Shown here in pieces: positions 2,578-13,158 of a DNA stretch of 33,873 nucleotides (position 1 is the stretch's first letter; the number at the start of each line of letters is the position of its first letter). Where the stretch lies: the NCBI GenBank assembly GCA_027030485.1, contig JALVEY010000046.1, forward strand, positions 1-33,873, read 5' to 3'. The DNA comes from Persephonella sp. (GTDB lineage: Bacteria > Aquificota > Aquificia > Aquificales > Hydrogenothermaceae). Below the pieces are notes generated by a model. That model had not been told where the DNA came from and ran no database searches. It saw only the letters and a program-made list of their open reading frames with translations. A program made the position numbers and the translations under genes.

Positions 2578-2949
2578 TTATCTGAAATTCTTAAACATCC
2601 ATAAGGAAATAGATTGTATTTCTTCATCAGATATATCTTTAACAGGAGGCATGATGCCCCATCTATCAATACAGGGTTTACAGATAGATTTATCAAGTGA
2701 TGGTTCTTTTATGAAGTTTTCAAGGTACTCTGCAAATCCTTCCCTTGTTCTATAGAAATATTTAATCTGTCTTGCTAAAACATCAATAGGTGGTGCTTTA
2801 AGGGATAAGTTGTTTGTAGTTTCGTCCGTTTTCTCAATATGACAGGAAGAACAGTACTGTTTAAAAACCTGATAACCGTATTCTTCTGCAAAAGAAAAAG
2901 AAAATACAATTAGAAAAAGAATTATCAACACCATCAAAACCTCATTCAA
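2578..2949 (-). CDS. Monoheme c-type cytochrome with signal peptide
   Basis: Hydrophobic N-terminus, CSSCH heme motif, later GIMPPV (likely axial Met). Start overlaps the end of the upstream lectin-pilin gene by 8 bp. Confidence 0.85.
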   Translation of the reverse strand: MNEVLMVLIILFLIVFSFSFAEEYGYQVFKQYCSSCHIEKTDETTNNLSLKAPPIDVLARQIKYFYRTREGFAEYLENFIKEPSLDKSICKPCIDRWGIMPPVKDISDEEIQSISLWMFKNFR

Positions 2950-4786
2950 ACCTTATTCCAAAATATGATATTTCAACCGTCTGGGTTCTTCCACCTGTTC
3001 CTTCTGTAAACCCAAACTTCACATCTGTAAGATTATTAGTCCAGTCCACACATCTTTTAACATCTGGAGAACTTGAGTTGTAATCTTTAGTTAGATCATC
3101 ACAGTTTGTGCAATCAATCCATGCTTCTATCAGCATTTTAGTTCCTGAACCTCCACAAGTAGAACAGTTAGTATCGCATCCTGTATGTATTTCCATTCTA
3201 AATGAGTGTTTAACACCATCTTCAAGCCAGGTTGGTCTTCGAGTGTAATAACATCCGACTTTTGTAGGATCTGAAAAATTAGTACAGTTTGATGTTATTC
3301 TAACAGAGGGGTTTGAATTACCTGAATGAACAACGCTCCCATTAAAATCTATAGAAACATGATTATAACCTCTGTTTCTCAAATATGGATCACGGTAATA
3401 TGTGTTTGGATATGTGTCTATTTCTACAGCTATACTTTCTTTATCAAGACCGTCGTAACCTAATTTTCCACCTGTTCCTCCACAGTTTAAATTCCAAGGA
3501 GGTTTTTGCCTTATAACAAAAGTAAAACCGTCAGCATCTCCCTTGCTGTCAAAGGATGTATCTACAGTAAGTTTGAAATTAAAAAAAGCTCTCATGGTTT
3601 TATTTTTCAACCTGAATGTTCCGTTATACCAAAAACATCCGAAAGTATTTCTTTGTCCATTTCCAAACGTAACAGTTCCGTTGTTTAGATCAGTATTAAT
3701 AGCATTTGGATTGTTTTCAATCTGGTTAAAATTACTAAGATCATTAGCAAAGCTTACCTGAGAGCCGGGTGGTGCAGATGATCCTGAGGAAGATGTCTGA
3801 GGGTTTATTGTTAGAACAAATGATTTTTCTGCTACACTGCCTTCAGTATCTATTACAAAAAATCTGAGGTTATAACTTCCTGCCTGACCTGTCGCTACTG
3901 TTCCTGACAAGATAGGAGAACTGCACTGCTTCCAATCTGCTCCAGTGTTAACAGATCCATCTACATTTAAACAGTTTGTAGATGCCGTTAGAGTACCTCC
4001 ACAACTAATAGAAACTCCTGAGGGTAAACTTCCCTGAAAACACCATTTATAGTCTGGGTTTGTATCCGGATCGCTCCCGTCTGTAAATGGTATTCCACCT
4101 TCGGCAAAAATAGCTGCGTTGTATGAACTGTTTTCATATCCGTATGGAAGTTCATTATTCAGTATCGAAAGCCTGCTTTCACATCTTATTTTTGTCTGAA
4201 GTTCTCCAAGGGTTATCCACTTTACTATGTCATCATACCTTTCAGGTCTGTTCATATCAGATGGAAAGTTATCCACATTGTCTATCCCGTAATCATACAC
4301 ATTTATTACAGTGGGCGTACTGAGCAGGATTGTATGATCTTCAGTATGGGTGTTTCCATCACCGGTTTGAATATTATTGTTAAGAGAACCACTAACTAAT
4401 AGAAAAGCTACATTTTTTATATCTATTGGTGAAGAACAAGCAGTATCACCGCATATTCTAACTGTTAGATTTGTATTTTTCTTTCTGCAAATAAGTTTAG
4501 AACTGGATGTTAAATCCTGATCTACAAAGTATTTGATCTTTTTTCCAAATGTATCCATAGGATTTCTTACTACACTTTTAAACTCAATATCGTTAGATGG
4601 AAGTCTCAATGCTGAACCTGAATAAGAAATTAACGAATCTGCAGCCGCATTAATAATTTCCTTTGTTGTATTAATTTTAGCCCTTTTAACAAGTATCCCA
4701 AGTACTGTAATTCCTAATCCTGCTAAAAGTCCTATTATAATAAGCACCATAGCAAGCTCTATAAGGGTAAAACCCTTTTTATTCAT
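2942..4786 (-). CDS. Type IV prepilin-like protein with Ig-like (He_PIG-type) and L-type (legume) lectin domains
   Basis: N-terminus MNKKG|FTLIELAMVLIIIGLLAG (prepilin peptidase motif with Glu5); middle ...SGTVATGQAGSYNLRFFVIDTEGSVAEKSFVLTINP (Ig-like); C-terminus ADGFTFVI..GGKLGYDG..SIAVEIDTYPNTYYRDPYLRNRGYNHVSIDFNGS...DVKFGFTEGTGGRTQTVEISYFGIRFE (legume lectin core). Confidence 0.85.
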   Translation of the reverse strand: MNKKGFTLIELAMVLIIIGLLAGLGITVLGILVKRAKINTTKEIINAAADSLISYSGSALRLPSNDIEFKSVVRNPMDTFGKKIKYFVDQDLTSSSKLICRKKNTNLTVRICGDTACSSPIDIKNVAFLLVSGSLNNNIQTGDGNTHTEDHTILLSTPTVINVYDYGIDNVDNFPSDMNRPERYDDIVKWITLGELQTKIRCESRLSILNNELPYGYENSSYNAAIFAEGGIPFTDGSDPDTNPDYKWCFQGSLPSGVSISCGGTLTASTNCLNVDGSVNTGADWKQCSSPILSGTVATGQAGSYNLRFFVIDTEGSVAEKSFVLTINPQTSSSGSSAPPGSQVSFANDLSNFNQIENNPNAINTDLNNGTVTFGNGQRNTFGCFWYNGTFRLKNKTMRAFFNFKLTVDTSFDSKGDADGFTFVIRQKPPWNLNCGGTGGKLGYDGLDKESIAVEIDTYPNTYYRDPYLRNRGYNHVSIDFNGSVVHSGNSNPSVRITSNCTNFSDPTKVGCYYTRRPTWLEDGVKHSFRMEIHTGCDTNCSTCGGSGTKMLIEAWIDCTNCDDLTKDYNSSSPDVKRCVDWTNNLTDVKFGFTEGTGGRTQTVEISYFGIRFE

Positions 4787-5762
4787 AACTTCCTCCTAAC
4801 AGTTTGATCCTTTCTTGAACTATTTTCTTGAGGTTATTATCGGAAAATGGGATTTTGTTTATATGTTTGTAAACTTGAACTGCTTTTTCTGGCAGATCTT
4901 TCATCTCAAGTATTCTTGCATATGCATAGGCTATGTACGGATCGTAAGGATTTTTTTCAAAAGCTTTTTTATAGTAAATATAAGCCTTTTCTATATTTCC
5001 TGACTTCTCTTCAAGAATTCCTTTTGTGTAGCTTAAGTATCCTGTTCTGTCTTCTGTTTTGTTTTTTAAAAATTTCTTAACAAGATTTATTTCTCCGTTT
5101 TCTATTAAAAAAATAAGTATCTGGGATAAGTATCTGGCGTCTCTTATTTTTTTTAGATTTGTAAGAGCTTTTTTCTTTTCTCCTGTATATATTTGTAGGA
5201 TTAATATATTTTTCATTAATTTTTCTGAAGGGTTTATACTGTAAGCCTTCTTGTAGTAAAAAAGGCTTTTTGTGTAATTTAGTTTTTCAAGATATTGATT
5301 TCCAAGGGATATATATGTGGAATACATGTAAGAAGAGGAATTTTTAGATTTTTTTGTTATTTCCTGTTCTGATCTTTTCATCTTTCGTTCTGAAATTTTT
5401 GTCTCCTGAATTTTCTCAGGTTTTTGTATATCCTTTTGTTGAGGTTTTGCCAAAATCTTTTCATTCTGGTGGTTGTTTATCTCATTTTTATCTTCTTTAG
5501 ATTTGACTGCAACTTCAGGTATCTGTTCTGTTAATTTCTGATTTTCCTTTTTTATCTCAGACAAAATGTTTTGTTCTTCTTGAAGGAGTTTTTCTTGATA
5601 AACATAAAGAAAAATGGTTAATGCCGATAAAACAAAAATAAATGTAAGGAGTATTAGTACTGTTTTACTGTCTTTTTTCTTATTTTTTTTCAGATTTGGA
5701 GGAACAGGTTTTCCTTTCTTCCCTCCTTTCATTTTATTAAGAGTATCAATCAATAGGCTCAT
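4779..5762 (-). CDS. TPR-repeat inner-membrane protein, MshN-like
   Basis: N-terminal cytosolic stretch, single TM (TVLILLTFIFVLSALTIFLYVY), TPR-like repeats; next to an MshL-like secretin. Confidence 0.7.
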   Translation of the reverse strand: MSLLIDTLNKMKGGKKGKPVPPNLKKNKKKDSKTVLILLTFIFVLSALTIFLYVYQEKLLQEEQNILSEIKKENQKLTEQIPEVAVKSKEDKNEINNHQNEKILAKPQQKDIQKPEKIQETKISERKMKRSEQEITKKSKNSSSYMYSTYISLGNQYLEKLNYTKSLFYYKKAYSINPSEKLMKNILILQIYTGEKKKALTNLKKIRDARYLSQILIFLIENGEINLVKKFLKNKTEDRTGYLSYTKGILEEKSGNIEKAYIYYKKAFEKNPYDPYIAYAYARILEMKDLPEKAVQVYKHINKIPFSDNNLKKIVQERIKLLGGSYE

Positions 5763-5770
5763 TTTTTACC

Positions 5771-7306
5771 TCAGTGAACCTTAATAATGTGGGGTGTCAA
5801 AAATATAATCAGTTCTTTTTTTTGTTTTAGGTATTCCTCCTTTCTAAACAGTATTCCCAGACCGGGGATGTCCCCTAATCCGGGAACTTTACTGACTATT
5901 TTTCTTTTTTCTGTTCCTATAAGCCCCCCTATTATAATAAGATCACCATCTTTTACTTTTACGATTGTTCCTGCCTCTTTTATGTTAAGTACAGGTGCTT
6001 CTGCAACAACCTGATTGTTGTCAACAAGCTGTCTCAAATCCTCTATCTTAGTTGAAACAGGGACAATATTCATCATTATCTCTCCATCTTCTATATAGGG
6101 GGTAACTCCCAGTAATACACCATCAAGTACGTTTGTTCTGTAATAAGACACCTGTTGAGTTGTTGCTGTTCCTGTTACGGTGCTGACCTGTTTTTCCCAG
6201 AAGGGTACGATAATTCCTGAGGAAATCAGAGCTGTCTGACCGTTGAGTACCCTAATTCTTGGATTTGATAAGGTTTCTATCTTTCCGGTTTTTTCAAGTG
6301 CGTTTAAGATCGATTGAAAGTCTGCTCCTGTTACTAAAATCTGGCCGTAGCTTGTTCCTAAGGCTAATGTCTGGGAAAGTCTGACCGATGCACCTGTGCC
6401 GATAAAGTCTCTCATAAGAAGGTTCCAGTCCACCCCGTATCTGAACTCTTTGCTCAGGGTGACCTCAATTATTTTAGCCTCTATTAGAACCTGTTTTTTG
6501 ACCTCTTTTTTTAATTTCTTGATAAGATCCTCAACTTTTTTCATTTTGTCTTTTGTTGCAGTAACTATAAGAATCCCTGCAAATTTGTTAAGGGTAAAGC
6601 TGTTAGGATTTTTTTCCTGAGTGTTATTATTTTCTACGGAAAGAATTTTTTTAAGGGAATCCTCAAGCTGCTTGTAATACTCGTTTATATCGTTAGGGTT
6701 TTCGTACTTTAATGAAAAATCCCCCTTCAGGTTTGCAACAGAAGGAGATGTTCCTGTTGTTCCGGTAGTCCCTCCTGAATAACCTCCTGTTGTTCCTGAA
6801 CTTCCCAGAACATCACCACCAAGATCAGCTTTGTATTTTGATTTTGAGTGAACGTATGGCAGATGAAAAACTTTTGTTTTTGTTGCTTTTATGTAGATCA
6901 CATTTCCTTTGATTTCGTAATAGACACCTGCCAGATCTGTTATTATCTCAAGGGCGGTTTTAACTGGAGTGTTGTTGAAGTTTGCTGTAACCGGAATTTC
7001 CGGATTAACGTCAGAAGATATGGCGATGTTCAGTCCTGCATCTTTTGCAACAGCGTAAAGGACTGTTTTTAACGGGGCGTTATCTGCACTAAAAGTAAAA
7101 AATCTGTTTTCAAGGGGTGAAATTTTTTCTACAGGTGGTTTAATTATAAGGGGTGGTGGTTGATTTTTCTTGATAACTTTGTAGTTATTTTCCTTCTCAG
7201 GTTCTTTTTTTATCTCTACAGTTTTTTCCGTTTTATCAGCAACATATCCACAACTTACAGCAAAACCCAAAAGAAAAATAATCAATAATCGTAAAATTTT
7301 ATCCAT
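5771..7306 (-). CDS. Type IV pilus/MSHA secretin (lipoprotein), MshL/PilQ-like
   Basis: Lipobox LLGFAVSC|G; secretin signature VPGLGDIPGLGILFRKEEYLKQKKELIIFLTPHII; STN/N0-like domain; G/S/T-rich linker. Confidence 0.92.
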   Translation of the reverse strand: MDKILRLLIIFLLGFAVSCGYVADKTEKTVEIKKEPEKENNYKVIKKNQPPPLIIKPPVEKISPLENRFFTFSADNAPLKTVLYAVAKDAGLNIAISSDVNPEIPVTANFNNTPVKTALEIITDLAGVYYEIKGNVIYIKATKTKVFHLPYVHSKSKYKADLGGDVLGSSGTTGGYSGGTTGTTGTSPSVANLKGDFSLKYENPNDINEYYKQLEDSLKKILSVENNNTQEKNPNSFTLNKFAGILIVTATKDKMKKVEDLIKKLKKEVKKQVLIEAKIIEVTLSKEFRYGVDWNLLMRDFIGTGASVRLSQTLALGTSYGQILVTGADFQSILNALEKTGKIETLSNPRIRVLNGQTALISSGIIVPFWEKQVSTVTGTATTQQVSYYRTNVLDGVLLGVTPYIEDGEIMMNIVPVSTKIEDLRQLVDNNQVVAEAPVLNIKEAGTIVKVKDGDLIIIGGLIGTEKRKIVSKVPGLGDIPGLGILFRKEEYLKQKKELIIFLTPHIIKVH

Positions 7307-7740
7307 CGCTCACCCCACTTTCCTTTTAATAAAACGCCTTCTTTTGAAATTTTAATGATTCTTTCTTCAGGGGAAATTCTGTCTCCCTCACTGTATAACT
7401 TTCCATTTATTATCGTATAACGGTTTGTCCCGATATAAATAAAGCTTACCTTATAAAATGGAGGAGGTTTCTGAGGAGTTTTTATTTTTTCAACGGTTTT
7501 GACTGTGTAAGGTCTGACATTAAGAACCGTTTGAAGAAGTTCTAAGTTTAATTCTTTCTCTCTTTTTTCTGAAAATTCAATATCAATAATCTCTGGATAA
7601 TAATTTAAAATACTTCCCCATTGTTCAATAACTTTCTGTTTTATAAATCCGTTAAAAAGAATAAATATAAACACTCCTAAAATCAGCGGAGAAACCAGAA
7701 CTGTAATCTCTTTATTTCCGATTTTTCTTATAAAATCCAT
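7282..7740 (-). CDS. Pilus assembly periplasmic protein, PilP/MshK-like
   Basis: 152 aa, N-terminal TM, C-terminal YTIINGKLYSEGDRISPEERIIKISKEGVLLKGKWGERWI (HR/PilP-like beta domain); position between PilO-like and secretin genes. Confidence 0.65.
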   Translation of the reverse strand: MDFIRKIGNKEITVLVSPLILGVFIFILFNGFIKQKVIEQWGSILNYYPEIIDIEFSEKREKELNLELLQTVLNVRPYTVKTVEKIKTPQKPPPFYKVSFIYIGTNRYTIINGKLYSEGDRISPEERIIKISKEGVLLKGKWGERWIKFYDY

Positions 7741-8241
7741 CTATTTTCCCTTTAAGAACGGTTGTATTAGCTGAACTTCTAAATAAACTTTCGTCCCTTC
7801 GTTAAGGTTTTCAATCCTGAATTTTTTTATCATAACTATAGGCGAGACTTCATCTTTTAGATTTAACAACAGAGAAAAAAGGTCTTCAGGAGTATTGGGG
7901 TAGTAATCAAATCCGAGTAAAATGGAGTAATAACCGTCTTCTTTTTTTATATCATCTTTTATTGAAGCATCGTATAGTTTTATAAAATTATCTGCTTTAC
8001 TTAAAATAAGTTGGAGTGATTCTTCTTCTTTATAGATTTTTATATTTTTTTTCTCTATAAAGTCAATCAGCCGGTTTAGTTTGCGTTCAATGTCCGTTAT
8101 TTTTATATTTTTTTTCTGTAGGTCATCAATTTTTTGAGAAAGACGTTGATCAACCTCACTTAAAGCGAAATAAAAACTCAAAAGGAATACGAATAATATC
8201 AGTCCCGTGGCATAAAGCACAAAATATTTATCTATCTTCAT
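7741..8241 (-). CDS. Pilus assembly protein PilO/MshJ-like
   Basis: 166 aa, N-terminal TM, coiled coil, ferredoxin-like C-terminus; syntenic position. Confidence 0.65.
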   Translation of the reverse strand: MKIDKYFVLYATGLILFVFLLSFYFALSEVDQRLSQKIDDLQKKNIKITDIERKLNRLIDFIEKKNIKIYKEEESLQLILSKADNFIKLYDASIKDDIKKEDGYYSILLGFDYYPNTPEDLFSLLLNLKDEVSPIVMIKKFRIENLNEGTKVYLEVQLIQPFLKGK

Positions 8242-9553
8242 GGATTTCCCTTTCTATTCTCAGATTAATCCTTAACGAGAGATTTTCTTTATCTTCCTGA
8301 ATGTTTTTTTGGATATTTTTATACCTTCTTAAGATTTCATTTATCTTTAGTTTAAAGCTAAGCATATCACTCAGGCTGCTAAAATTCTGCTCCGAAAAAA
8401 TCTGTATGATCTGTCTGTTATCCTTATTTTCTATGGTTATCATTTTTTCATTAAGAACTTCAAAAATTGATGGCATCTGATCAAAAACAAAAACAGGATT
8501 TAGATCTTCTGACTTTTCAAACTTTTTTATGTAATTTATAAAATAACCAAGCTCATCTTTGCTGATTTTTTTATTTATAAATGATATTTTTTTCTGAATA
8601 GCCTTTTTCAAATCAGAAAGCTGGTTTTCTTTTTCTTTTATACCTGCGTAAACTGTAAAAATCCCTATAGATAGCAATATAATAAGAAATATTGAGAATA
8701 AAGACAAAAATTTTGATATACCTTTAAGTGCTTTTTCCTTTTTTATTATAGAAGGTGTAAAATCAAAATTTTTATTGAGCAATGCTGTACCTACAGGTAT
8801 TAGATATTCCATAAAGTCTTCCTGGGAGATACCCGAAATGAAAGTTTCCACAGAAGGTATTTTAATTTTTAGATTTGTTAATTTTTCGCAAAGTTTAAGT
8901 AATTGAGGGTCTGATGCAGCTTTTCCTGAAATAACTATACTTTCCACATTTATCCTTTTGGTTTGGACTGTAAAAACATAAGTCATATTAAAGTTTTCAT
9001 AATATATATTTGTTAGATCTTTCAATTCTGTTATCTCAGGTAAAGGTATTGATCTAACATATAATATGTCATCTCCCTTTGAAACTGTAATCAGAGCTTT
9101 TTCTGTATCCCCATAGAAATGGAAACAGGTTTTGTTTCCACAGATCTTTTTTGAAATAGGGGCAAGTGAAAAAATATCAACTGTGAAAAGCTCTATATTG
9201 TAAGGATTTTCATTCACTAAGTCTATAGTTTCAAAAAATTTATCTGTTGGTATTCCGTAAACATCAAATAAAGTCTCGTTTTCTGAAATTCTTTCCTTTT
9301 TTAAAATAACAAATGAGTAATTTTTTCCCTCTTCTAATAGGGCTGACATCCTTGATTTTAAGAGGATCTGTACTGTCTCTTCATCATCTATTTCTGGAAG
9401 AACAATACTTGAATAAATGATGTCAGGGAAAAAAATAGAGACACGAAGTTTTGATGATTTTTTATCAAAAGAAAAAAAGCTTAGTTTTTCTTTAAGGTGG
9501 ACTGTTAGTCCTTTTCTTATATTTTTGCCTATTTCCACCGAATAGATTTTCAT
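8228..9553 (-). CDS. MshI/GspL-like pilus assembly protein (PilM-like N-half, TM and PilN-like C-half)
   Basis: N-terminal actin-like PilM features (LPEIDDEETVQILLKSRM...; VPVGTALLN-like YLIPVGTALLN), then TM FLSLFSIFLIILLSIGIFTVYAG and a coiled-coil periplasmic segment; first gene of the operon. Confidence 0.7.
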   Translation of the reverse strand: MKIYSVEIGKNIRKGLTVHLKEKLSFFSFDKKSSKLRVSIFFPDIIYSSIVLPEIDDEETVQILLKSRMSALLEEGKNYSFVILKKERISENETLFDVYGIPTDKFFETIDLVNENPYNIELFTVDIFSLAPISKKICGNKTCFHFYGDTEKALITVSKGDDILYVRSIPLPEITELKDLTNIYYENFNMTYVFTVQTKRINVESIVISGKAASDPQLLKLCEKLTNLKIKIPSVETFISGISQEDFMEYLIPVGTALLNKNFDFTPSIIKKEKALKGISKFLSLFSIFLIILLSIGIFTVYAGIKEKENQLSDLKKAIQKKISFINKKISKDELGYFINYIKKFEKSEDLNPVFVFDQMPSIFEVLNEKMITIENKDNRQIIQIFSEQNFSSLSDMLSFKLKINEILRRYKNIQKNIQEDKENLSLRINLRIEREIHEDR

Positions 9554-9659: not shown

Positions 9660-10259
9660 ATGAAAAAGAACCAGAAGGGTTTCACATTGGTTGAGCTTGC
9701 TATAGTTCTTGTTATCATTGGTATTATTTTAGGTGCAGTGTTGAAGGGACAAGAACTTATAAAAAACGCAAAAGAAAAAAGACTTTACAATACGTATAGA
9801 GAGATAATAGCTGCGGTTAATACATACCTTGATAGGTACAACGCTCTTCCTGGAGATGATCCAAAGGCTGGAACAAGGTGGAGTGGACAGCCCAACGGAA
9901 ATGGAAATGGACAGATCGCCGGATTTAACTTTGCCTGTACCAACACCACAAACCAGGAAACATGCTATCTTTGGCAACATCTAAGAGTTTCAGGAATAAT
10001 AAATGGAAATCCCAGCGACAGAACAAATCCTAATCATCCATTTGGTGGAAAAGTGGCTATAGGTTGGACTACTTATAACGGTATAACAGATCACTGGATA
10101 GGATTTCAAAATGTTCCAGAAGAGATAGCCCTTTCCATAGATGAAAAATATGATGATGGTGTATACAATACAGGTTCTATAATATCAAGCGGAAGTACTG
10201 ATTATAATTTAAGTGATACTGCAGATGAAATAAGAGATCTTCGTTTTAAAGGATTTTAA
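9660..10259 (+). CDS. Type IV pilin (major pilin candidate)
   Basis: MKKNQKG|FTLVELAIVLVIIGIILGAVLKGQELIKNAK; strong RBS aaaggagg; first gene of the plus operon. Confidence 0.93.
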   Translation: MKKNQKGFTLVELAIVLVIIGIILGAVLKGQELIKNAKEKRLYNTYREIIAAVNTYLDRYNALPGDDPKAGTRWSGQPNGNGNGQIAGFNFACTNTTNQETCYLWQHLRVSGIINGNPSDRTNPNHPFGGKVAIGWTTYNGITDHWIGFQNVPEEIALSIDEKYDDGVYNTGSIISSGSTDYNLSDTADEIRDLRFKGF

Positions 10260-10267
10260 TTAAAAAA

Positions 10268-11938
10268 ATGGAAAGAAAACCTTTAGGCCAGCTCCTAAAG
10301 GAGCTTGGCTATATCACAGAAGAGCAGATTACTGTTGCTCTTGAGGTTCAGAGAATTAAAGGAGGGCTTTTCGGAGAAATTCTCCAACAGCTCTCCTTTG
10401 TTTCCCCGAGAGAAGTTGCTGAGGCAATTGCTAACCAGTCAGGAAAACCTTTTATTGATCTTTCCCAGTATCCACCTTCAAAAGATGCCCTTAAACTTAT
10501 AGACAAAAATATGGCAAAACAATTTCAAGTTGTACCATTTAGTATAGAAAATAATAAACTTTTTCTTGCGATGTCTAATCCATATGATCTAAACGCCATT
10601 GATATTGTTAAAAGAAGAACAAACCTTGAGATACAGATTTATGTCGCTGATACAGAAACATTATTAAAAACAATAGAGATTCAGTACTTTCTCCTTGAGA
10701 GACCTATTGATCAGGAGATAAAACAGATCATAGAAAGATCAAGGACAGGTGGAGCTGACATACCGAAGTTTGTTGAGCTTATAATAAACAACGCCATAAT
10801 AGAGAGGGCAACAGATATACATATCTCCCCTGAAGACCTTGCCTCACACATCTTTTTCAGAATAGATGGAATAATGAGGCATTATTATGCTTTTCCAAAA
10901 GAGATACATTCTCCTATCGTTTCAAGAATAAAGGTTCTTGCAGGTATGGATATAGCCGAACAGAGACTTCCTCAGGACGGCTCTTTTTCCCATGAGTTTT
11001 TTAATGAAACCTACGATATGAGGGTTTCATCAATACCTACAGCCTACGGTGAAAATGTAGTTATAAGGGTTTTATCCAAAAATCTTTCCCTTTTTAATCT
11101 GAGATCACTGGGCTTTGAGGAGGAAATACTAAAAAAATTAGAAGAAGAGTTTTTAAAGCCACAGGGTATAGTCCTTGTTACAGGTCCTACAGGATCAGGT
11201 AAAACTACCACTCTTTATGCTGCACTCAGAAGGATAAACGCCCTTAGAAGAAATATCCTTACTGTGGAAGATCCTATTGAGTATAAATTTCCCTTTATAA
11301 AACAGACACAGGTAAATGAAAAGGCAGGGTACACATTTGCAAGGGCTATAAGACACTTTTTAAGGCAAGATCCTGATGTTATCCTTGTAGGTGAAATAAG
11401 GGATGAGGAAACTGCCGAGATGGCAATGAGAGCATCCATTACAGGTCATTTAGTTTTATCCACATTGCATACAAATGATTCTGTAAGTGCTATTCCAAGA
11501 CTGATAGATATGAAAATAAAAGATTATATGGTTGCTTCCGGAGTTTCTGCAATAACAGCCCAGAGATTGGTAAGAAAAATCTGTCCTTTCTGTAAACAGG
11601 AGAGAATAGTCTCCGGCAAGGATTTACTTGATTTTGGGTTTGAAGAAGAACAGATAAAAAAATTTGGAAAAATAGAAAAAATAGAAGATCAGACAAAGAT
11701 CTACTATGGTAAAGGGTGTGAGCATTGTAAAGAAACAGGGTATCTTGGGAGAACAGTAATAGCTGAACTTCTTAAGATAGATCACGAAATAGCTGATCTT
11801 ATTGTAAAAGGTTCAACCCCCCTTTCAATTATGGAAAAAGCAAAACAAAAAGGTATGTGGACTTTAAAAGAGGATGGTCTTATCAAGATAATAAAAGGGA
11901 TAACAACCCCTGAAGAAGTTAAAAGGGTAGCAGGCTGA
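10268..11938 (+). CDS. GspE/PilB/MshE-type assembly ATPase
   Basis: Walker A GPTGSGKTTTLYAAL, DPDVILVGEIRDEETAEMAMRASITGHLVLSTLHTND, tetracysteine CPFC...CEHC; N-terminal MshEN-like domain. Confidence 0.97.
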   Translation: MERKPLGQLLKELGYITEEQITVALEVQRIKGGLFGEILQQLSFVSPREVAEAIANQSGKPFIDLSQYPPSKDALKLIDKNMAKQFQVVPFSIENNKLFLAMSNPYDLNAIDIVKRRTNLEIQIYVADTETLLKTIEIQYFLLERPIDQEIKQIIERSRTGGADIPKFVELIINNAIIERATDIHISPEDLASHIFFRIDGIMRHYYAFPKEIHSPIVSRIKVLAGMDIAEQRLPQDGSFSHEFFNETYDMRVSSIPTAYGENVVIRVLSKNLSLFNLRSLGFEEEILKKLEEEFLKPQGIVLVTGPTGSGKTTTLYAALRRINALRRNILTVEDPIEYKFPFIKQTQVNEKAGYTFARAIRHFLRQDPDVILVGEIRDEETAEMAMRASITGHLVLSTLHTNDSVSAIPRLIDMKIKDYMVASGVSAITAQRLVRKICPFCKQERIVSGKDLLDFGFEEEQIKKFGKIEKIEDQTKIYYGKGCEHCKETGYLGRTVIAELLKIDHEIADLIVKGSTPLSIMEKAKQKGMWTLKEDGLIKIIKGITTPEEVKRVAG

Positions 11939-13158
11939 TGAATTTTTACCTGATAGAGGCTATAAATAGAGAAGGAAAAAAACAAAAGAAAATACTTGAG
12001 GTAGATGTAGAGGAGGAACTTTTTCGTTTTCTGGAATTTTCCGGCCTCATACCTCTCAAAGTTAAAAAAGTCCCTTCATTTTACAGATACCTTAACATAA
12101 AAAAGTATTTTTACAGAATAAAGAGACAGGAAATCATAGAAACCCTTGAAAACCTTCATATTATAGTAAAATCGGGAATTCCTATTACAAACGGTCTTAT
12201 TGATATAGCAGAAGATACAGATAACCCGTCTTTAAAAGATATGCTTACAGATATAGCTTATCGTCTTCAAATGGGCTACACATTATCCAGAGCTTTTGAA
12301 CATTATCAAGAAACCTTTTCACCCATAGTTGTTTCCCTAATAAAAATTGGTGAAGAGACAGGTTCTTTAGATAAAACTCTGAAGGATGCTTCGGAACATC
12401 TGAAAAAGATTGAGGATATAAAATCTAAAACAAAGCAGGCTCTAATTTATCCTACATTTGCATTTTTTAGTGTGTTCGGTGCGATGATCTTCTGGCTAAT
12501 TTATGTATTGCCAAAAATAATTGATGCATTTAAAGATTTTAATATTAAACTACCTTTAACAACTATTTTTATAATGAATGTTTCTGATTTTACGAGGAAG
12601 TATTTTCTTGCTGTAGGTATTTTTGTTTTAATTTTAATTTTTTTAACAGGTTTAATTAGAAAGAAAAGTGATAGATTTAGATATGAAACAGATAAAGTTT
12701 TACTGAGACTTCCAGTTTTTGGATCTATAATAATGAACTTTAATTACGCCTTTTTCGCAGAATATATAAGGCTTATGCTGTCATCAGGGGTTCCTCTATA
12801 TCAGGCTCTTAACATAATGGAATCTTCTATAAAAAATATGGTATTTAAGACGGCTATTAAGAATACAAGGGAAAAAATAGAAAGGGGAAAGTCTTTTTCA
12901 GAATCCCTAAAGGAAGAAGGGGTTTTCTCCCCAATCATCATAAGAATGATAGCAATAGGTGAACAGGCAGGAAGACTTGACGAACAGCTAAACTATATAT
13001 CAAATTACTATTACAACAAGGTTGATTATCTGTCCCAGAACATAGCCAAGATGATAGAACCTATTGTGATAGGTATCGTAGGAGGGTTTATGCTAATAAT
13101 AATGCTGGGTCTTGTTGGTCCTATTTATGATCTCATCGCTGAAGTTTCAAAGATGTAG
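11938..13158 (+). CDS. GspF/PilC/MshG-type inner-membrane platform protein
   Basis: Two GspF repeats (LHIIVKSGIPITNGL...GYTLSRAFE; IRLMLSSGVPLYQALNIM...GKSFSESLKEEGVFSPIIIRMIAIGEQAGRLDE), three TMs. Confidence 0.96.
   Translation: MNFYLIEAINREGKKQKKILEVDVEEELFRFLEFSGLIPLKVKKVPSFYRYLNIKKYFYRIKRQEIIETLENLHIIVKSGIPITNGLIDIAEDTDNPSLKDMLTDIAYRLQMGYTLSRAFEHYQETFSPIVVSLIKIGEETGSLDKTLKDASEHLKKIEDIKSKTKQALIYPTFAFFSVFGAMIFWLIYVLPKIIDAFKDFNIKLPLTTIFIMNVSDFTRKYFLAVGIFVLILIFLTGLIRKKSDRFRYETDKVLLRLPVFGSIIMNFNYAFFAEYIRLMLSSGVPLYQALNIMESSIKNMVFKTAIKNTREKIERGKSFSESLKEEGVFSPIIIRMIAIGEQAGRLDEQLNYISNYYYNKVDYLSQNIAKMIEPIVIGIVGGFMLIIMLGLVGPIYDLIAEVSKM

Follow-up and report, generated by a model that had tools for sequence, protein, structure and literature searches.

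A lectin-bearing modular pilin, putatively an exchangeable tip adhesin, at an MSHA-like pilus locus of a Persephonella-like bacterium

The gene read from 4786 to 2942 on the minus strand of the window (the whole 33,873-nucleotide stretch of DNA analysed here, from a heat-loving Persephonella-like bacterium) encodes a prepilin with an L-type lectin domain at its C-terminal end. The product is probably a modular minor pilin that acts as the tip adhesin of an MSHA-like type IV pilus, with a glycan-binding head and a gene that occupies an exchangeable slot. Five species keep the gene, with 56-94% identity in every module and no internal stops, so the well-conserved lectin-bearing modular pilin is real; its role as an exchangeable tip adhesin is likely. 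The nearest named relative is the protein of a Persephonella MAG, with 84% identity over the full length.

Modular gene and pilus locus

Pfam profiles and motifs place a prepilin N-terminus, a pilin body, an Ig-like module and an L-type lectin in one ORF, the combination put forward in the original prediction. All motifs named there for 2942-4786 are present letter for letter, and the strand, which was absent there, is minus. The layout is as follows.

2942..4786, minus strand: modular prepilin with an L-type lectin head, 614 amino acids plus stop in one open frame
4772..4786, minus strand: class III leader MNKKG, predicted cut before F6 (mature F1, E5), from the sequence and an N_methyl match above cut-off
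4172..4771, minus strand: pilin body, residues 6-205, from the AlphaFold model and motif comparison
3797..4171, minus strand: Ig-like (He_PIG-type) module, residues 206-330, from homologues and modelled beta structure
3752..3796, minus strand: Ser/Gly/Pro-rich linker, residues 331-345, from the sequence and low pLDDT from residue 331 on
2945..3751, minus strand: L-type (legume) lectin head, residues 346-614, from Pfam PF18483 and a PDB profile

The leader (MNKKG/FTLIEL) has a Gly ahead of the cleavage site, F1 and E5 in the mature protein, and a hydrophobic helix. The N_methyl profile (PF07963) matches residues 2-24 above the Pfam cut-off, and the full-length AlphaFold model has an N-terminal helix at residues 8-59. 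The lectin pilin has the make-up of a class III prepilin and, with a non-pilus domain fused behind the pilin body, that of a modular pilin of the PilB/PilC type. The pilin body terminates in a YDDIVKWITLGEL motif that is common to the Nitrospirota homologues. The He_PIG profile is weak in the window's protein (E=0.16) and clear in homologues (E as low as 2.5e-30), and the module is confident beta structure in the full-length AlphaFold model.

The lectin-pilin gene ends an MSHA-like pilus operon. The surrounding genes are as follows.

2578..2949, minus strand: small cytochrome c-like protein (Pfam Cytochrome_CBB3 6e-6, slightly below cut-off), overlapping the 3' end of the pilin gene
4779..5762, minus strand: TPR membrane protein in the MshN position, from the profile scan
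5771..7306, minus strand: MshL-like secretin (best match MshL, 244.0 bits against a cut-off of 250.2)
7282..7740, minus strand: MshK/GspB-like small membrane protein (T2SSB weak; position conserved)
7741..8241, minus strand: MshJ/PilO-like small membrane protein, from position and shape
8228..9553, minus strand: MshI/PilM-N-like protein, from position and shape
9660..10259, plus strand: probable major pilin, 199 amino acids (N_methyl 38.2 bits)
10268..11938, plus strand: MshE-like extension ATPase with an MshEN c-di-GMP-type domain (T2SSE 2e-124, MshEN 1e-16)
11938..13158, plus strand: MshG/GspF-like inner-membrane platform protein (T2SSF 1.7e-52)

The plus-strand pilin, ATPase and platform genes diverge from the minus-strand operon. 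By profile matches, the secretin beside the lectin pilin, which had been foreseen, is MshL-like and is accompanied by an MshE-like ATPase and an MshG-like platform protein; the ATPase also matches NF053729 with 55 bits, above the cut-off of 38. The MshK-, MshJ- and MshI-like names are given from position, size and an apparent membrane anchor, as family matches are not strong. A small gene similar to the cytochrome c-like gene adjoins the carrier slot in several relatives (L113, L114, and L117).

The Vibrio MSHA set has several pilin genes (MshA, B, C, D, O, and P). A multi-pilin set of this kind was not found at the locus, which has two pilin genes. These are the only two prepilin genes found in the window's genome, which is 83% complete and encodes a prepilin peptidase (PF01478, G000:C164) and PilT outside the pilus locus. 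Near-complete relatives hold five to ten prepilin genes each, so the count of two pilins describes the locus and may not extend to the cell. The probable major pilin is hypervariable: it shares 43% identity between G019 and G025, and the other genes of their locus share 71-98% (loci compared: window 9660-10259; L111:12638-13285; L112:2211-2822). None of the plasmids searched carries the lectin-pilin gene.

Two other roles for the filament were weighed against this locus. The filament could be a type II-like pseudopilus, with the protein working in the periplasm or in secretion and not as a surface adhesin. The profile scan does give type II-like matches (GspG 1.7e-8, residues 4-79), but the secretin is closest to MshL, if slightly below its cut-off, the ATPase has MshEN, and GspC and GspL were not seen at the locus. 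Related complete genomes also have an extra cluster of three small prepilins, one of 144 amino acids (GspG-sized), which possibly forms a separate type II-like system. A pseudopilus is very unlikely on these grounds. A receptor for the uptake of DNA or matrix, the role suggested for Thermus ComZ, is still less probable. The large modular pilin and the thermophile host would suit it, and the beta-solenoid module of ComZ, cited as DNA-binding in the text of PMC8179133, offers a precedent; similarity to a beta-solenoid was not found in the head, which has a lectin site instead.

Lectin head and predicted sugar and metal site

The profile PF18483 (Lectin_L-type_dom) aligns with residues 358-532 at E=3.5e-14 and 53.6 bits when the whole protein is searched, and gives E=2.8e-15 and 57.2 bits against the lectin domain alone; both scores are lower than the curated Pfam cut-off of 78.3 bits, and Pfam itself would not annotate the lectin. 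A profile built from the five orthologous heads matches the PDB lectins 7elv (E=1.1e-9) and 2fmd (E=2.7e-7). A further weak colinear stretch in the PDB lectin alignment lies close to the C-terminus (FGFTEGTGG). The Pfam legume-lectin match expected at the outset was found in part: PF18483 is significant, although below its cut-off, and a search of the window's own genome with PF00139 gave no match. PF00139 does match two of the five lectin heads. It was dropped as a model for the window's head for lack of a match, and PF18483 is the right model. Despite the Pfam score, these comparisons support the head as a true L-type lectin.

The lectin head was modelled with AlphaFold from two sequences only, with a pLDDT of 39 and a pTM of 0.42, and Foldseek gave no significant hit (best E 0.1); the poor model is attributed to the input of only two lectin sequences. 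The full-length model, made from eight sequences, reaches a pLDDT of about 70-87 across much of residues 40-330 and is not usable past them. The Foldseek lists from both models were set aside as evidence. Since AlphaFold yielded no usable lectin model, the fold claim rests on sequence homology.

The sugar and metal residues can be located within the head as follows.

3530..3532, minus strand: sugar-site Asp D419 (ADGFTF), invariant in five species and aligned with legume lectins
3458..3472, minus strand: Gly-rich sugar loop GGKLG, residues 439-443, which is GGGLG in two species
3359..3424, minus strand: metal-site stretch E455, D457, N461, D466 and H476, invariant in five species
3101..3178, minus strand: Cys cluster C537-x3-C541-x2-C544...C559-x2-C562, invariant

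N461 doubles as the sugar-site Asn. The metal-site stretch aligns with VEFDTYPNTDIGDP...H of 2fmd. The alignment of 2fmd with the single lectin pilin extends over the metal stretch as well as the sugar Asp; the His, which comes after about five inserted residues, was set by eye. In the five-species alignment the Asp, the Gly-rich loop and the metal ligands E, D, N, D and H are conserved as had been claimed. The lectin head shares 56-91% identity among the five species, and all eight sugar and metal residues are invariant (8/8; hypergeometric p=0.003 against a background of 137 invariant positions out of 276 in the lectin). The eight residues were chosen beforehand from family knowledge, and this p-value is modest. 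The CX3CX2C...CX2C cluster has no counterpart in the plant lectin alignments shown; disulfides or a metal site are candidate roles for it.

An alternative for the head is that it keeps the L-type fold and the metal site for a structural role, or for attachment to protein or mineral surfaces and not to glycans. L-type folds serve protein contacts too, and the conserved Cys cluster, missing in the aligned plant lectins, may make another contact. Set against this, the Asp, Gly and Asn of the monosaccharide site and all metal ligands are invariant. Such residues would be superfluous in a purely structural domain, which disfavours that version, and a non-glycan head is considered unlikely. A predicted glycan-binding head with a Ca/Mn-dependent site is preferred.

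Other L-type lectin proteins in Aquificota (L046:514-1965, L047:646-2037, and L048:1021-3021) have no prepilin start; one of the three seems to contain two lectin domains. The prepilin start is likewise absent from L138, the sole one read of three PF18483 matches in a Nitrospirota-centred survey.

One carrier, different heads and probable gene exchange

Beyond what the original prediction described, profile searches show the pilin to be a shared carrier, with heads that differ between species. A pilin-body profile found a homologous carrier in 50 of 136 Aquificota genomes and in 30 of the 245 genomes, taken from the phylum of a record titled Nitrospirae, that make up the Nitrospirota-centred survey. 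Only five of the 136, all from the window's genus, have the lectin on the carrier. The carrier at L015 has a Laminin_G_3 (LamG) head (2.3e-13), and the one at L074 has DUF2341 followed by an apparent ConA-like stretch. Further carriers have small Cys-containing ends, and the number of He_PIG modules varies. In most loci of the family that were read, mshN is followed directly by the carrier, and near-complete genomes of the window's genus have a single copy in a single syntenic slot. Different heads in the same gene slot suggest that the pilus changes its grip by exchange of a tip subunit.

A small Cys-containing head with a YNNG-LSDR/TDR-like ending is present at L014, L016, L019, L023, L006, and L008. 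This head, present in carriers of both Aquificota and Nitrospirota, may be ancestral. In the Nitrospirota-centred survey, the end of the carrier at L108:1-2025 resembles a LamG-type domain by eye. In two genomes of this survey, modular pilins that differ at their C-termini stand in tandem arrays (L109:2772-10950 and L110:1284-7316). One has five carrier matches (417-693 amino acids), and the other has three carriers on one contig and one on another (429-1090 amino acids). The pilins of L007, titled Saccharibacteria, are closely like those of the Nitrospirae locus L002, and the contig is possibly mis-binned.

The trees of the carrier and of the pilus machine are in conflict. In the mshL tree, G019 and G025 (lectin) join G027 and G028 (no lectin) with full support, and G018 (no lectin) is placed beside G000 and G023 (lectin). 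In the pilin-body tree, the lectin pilins group together, with the long-branched G015 inside that set, and those of G027 and G028 go with pilins of another genus. In the two genes past the pilin, G019 and G028 are 92% and 87% identical, and in mshE 94%; their pilin bodies share 42% identity. The corresponding values for G019 and G000 are 78%, 72%, and 82%, with 68% in the pilin body. G018 presents a second conflict: its pilin body shares 71% identity with that of G017 and 52% with that of G000, and the mshL values are 68% and 78%, respectively. The pilin data reject G019, G025, G027, and G028 as one group (AU p=3e-50), and the lectin genomes as one group are rejected by mshL (5.5e-12), mshE (3.4e-5), and mshN (0.0012), with groups that were picked after the pairwise identities and trees were known, so that these p-values are not blind. 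The argument for exchange is drawn from how large the conflict is and from the fact that three genes and both flanks agree on it, not from the p-values.

This conflict with the mshL, mshE and mshN trees points to exchange of the pilin gene between lineages while the machine stayed. Exchange of the whole pilin gene is the simplest reading and the most likely one from the sequence comparisons. The main alternative, which is rather unlikely, is that the differing heads are ancient duplicate carriers sorted by differential loss, without exchange between lineages. Several carriers do occur in some Aquificota and in two Nitrospirota-centred genomes, in tandem in the latter, but the near-complete genomes of the window's genus have their one copy in one slot, and repeated traceless loss of duplicates would be required. 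On the exchange reading, the mshN-adjacent slot in Aquificota may well be a natural tip-exchange site. There the whole modular pilin gene, with a lectin, LamG-type or other head, would be replaced as the machine descends vertically, and the window would hold the first described metal-site L-type lectin tip.

A course of events can be proposed for the lectin pilin. A prepilin peptidase would cleave off MNKKG, and the N-terminal helix would pack in the filament, with the Ig-like module and linker keeping the head clear. The tip position is putative, and the pilin body has no close sequence kin among pilins of known position. The lectin head would hold a glycan via a Ca/Mn-ordered site, and the lectin-headed pilus may anchor the cell to a surface, to matrix or to other cells nearby. 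In its fixed slot after mshN, the carrier gene would be swapped as a unit between lineages, changing the head and its target.

Comparison with known systems

A lectin-bearing pilin (PMC9934059) and modular pilins in general (PMC8179133) were already known, so the novelty hoped for in the original prediction holds for the L-type, metal-site version. It is reduced by PilC of Streptococcus sanguinis and by the 264 architectures, from more than 1,200 modular pilins, that the text of a 2021 survey reports (PMC8179133). A literature search for an L-type lectin joined to a pilin or type IV pilin found no relevant report. As far as found in the literature, the new elements are a metal-site L-type lectin in a diderm MSHA-like locus and the exchange of its slot. 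Lectin pilins, known from a human commensal whose head is galectin-like, are thereby extended to an early-branching thermophile in which the head is of the legume type. Sister species that share slot and machine and differ in their heads form a natural experiment for testing directly how heads relate to targets and which rules govern tip exchange, and the thermostable L-type lectins may serve as reagents.

S. sanguinis PilC has a pilin, an Ig-like module and a ConA-superfamily lectin in the identical order; its lectin was shown to bind sialylated glycans, and PilC is modelled at the pilus tip (PMC9934059). The PilC host is a monoderm and its lectin is galectin-like in structure (Gal-7), whereas the window's protein, from a diderm MSHA-like locus, has an L-type lectin head that keeps the legume Ca/Mn residues. 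As in modular pilins generally, a functional domain is grafted on a pilin, and N_methyl with PF13385 or PF05345 is common (PMC8179133). PF18483 is not among the architectures named in the text of that survey, and its Dataset S1 may list it.

The head shares the sugar Asp, Gly loop and Asn and the E, D, N, D and H ligands with legume and other L-type lectins (PDB 2fmd and 7elv), and differs from these two in about five extra residues ahead of the His, the Cys cluster and the pilin fusion. The MshL/MshE/MshG-type machine is like that of the Vibrio cholerae MSHA pilus, for which MshQ is the putative adhesin (PMC7096442). Unlike that system, the window's locus has two pilins, with the adhesive domain on the pilin after mshN. 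In Myxococcus, Kil/Tad pili have tips customised by large modular minor pilins, with several alternatives (PMC12075869). That system uses Tad machinery and paralogous tip sets within each genome, whereas the slot described here is single and its heads vary across species.
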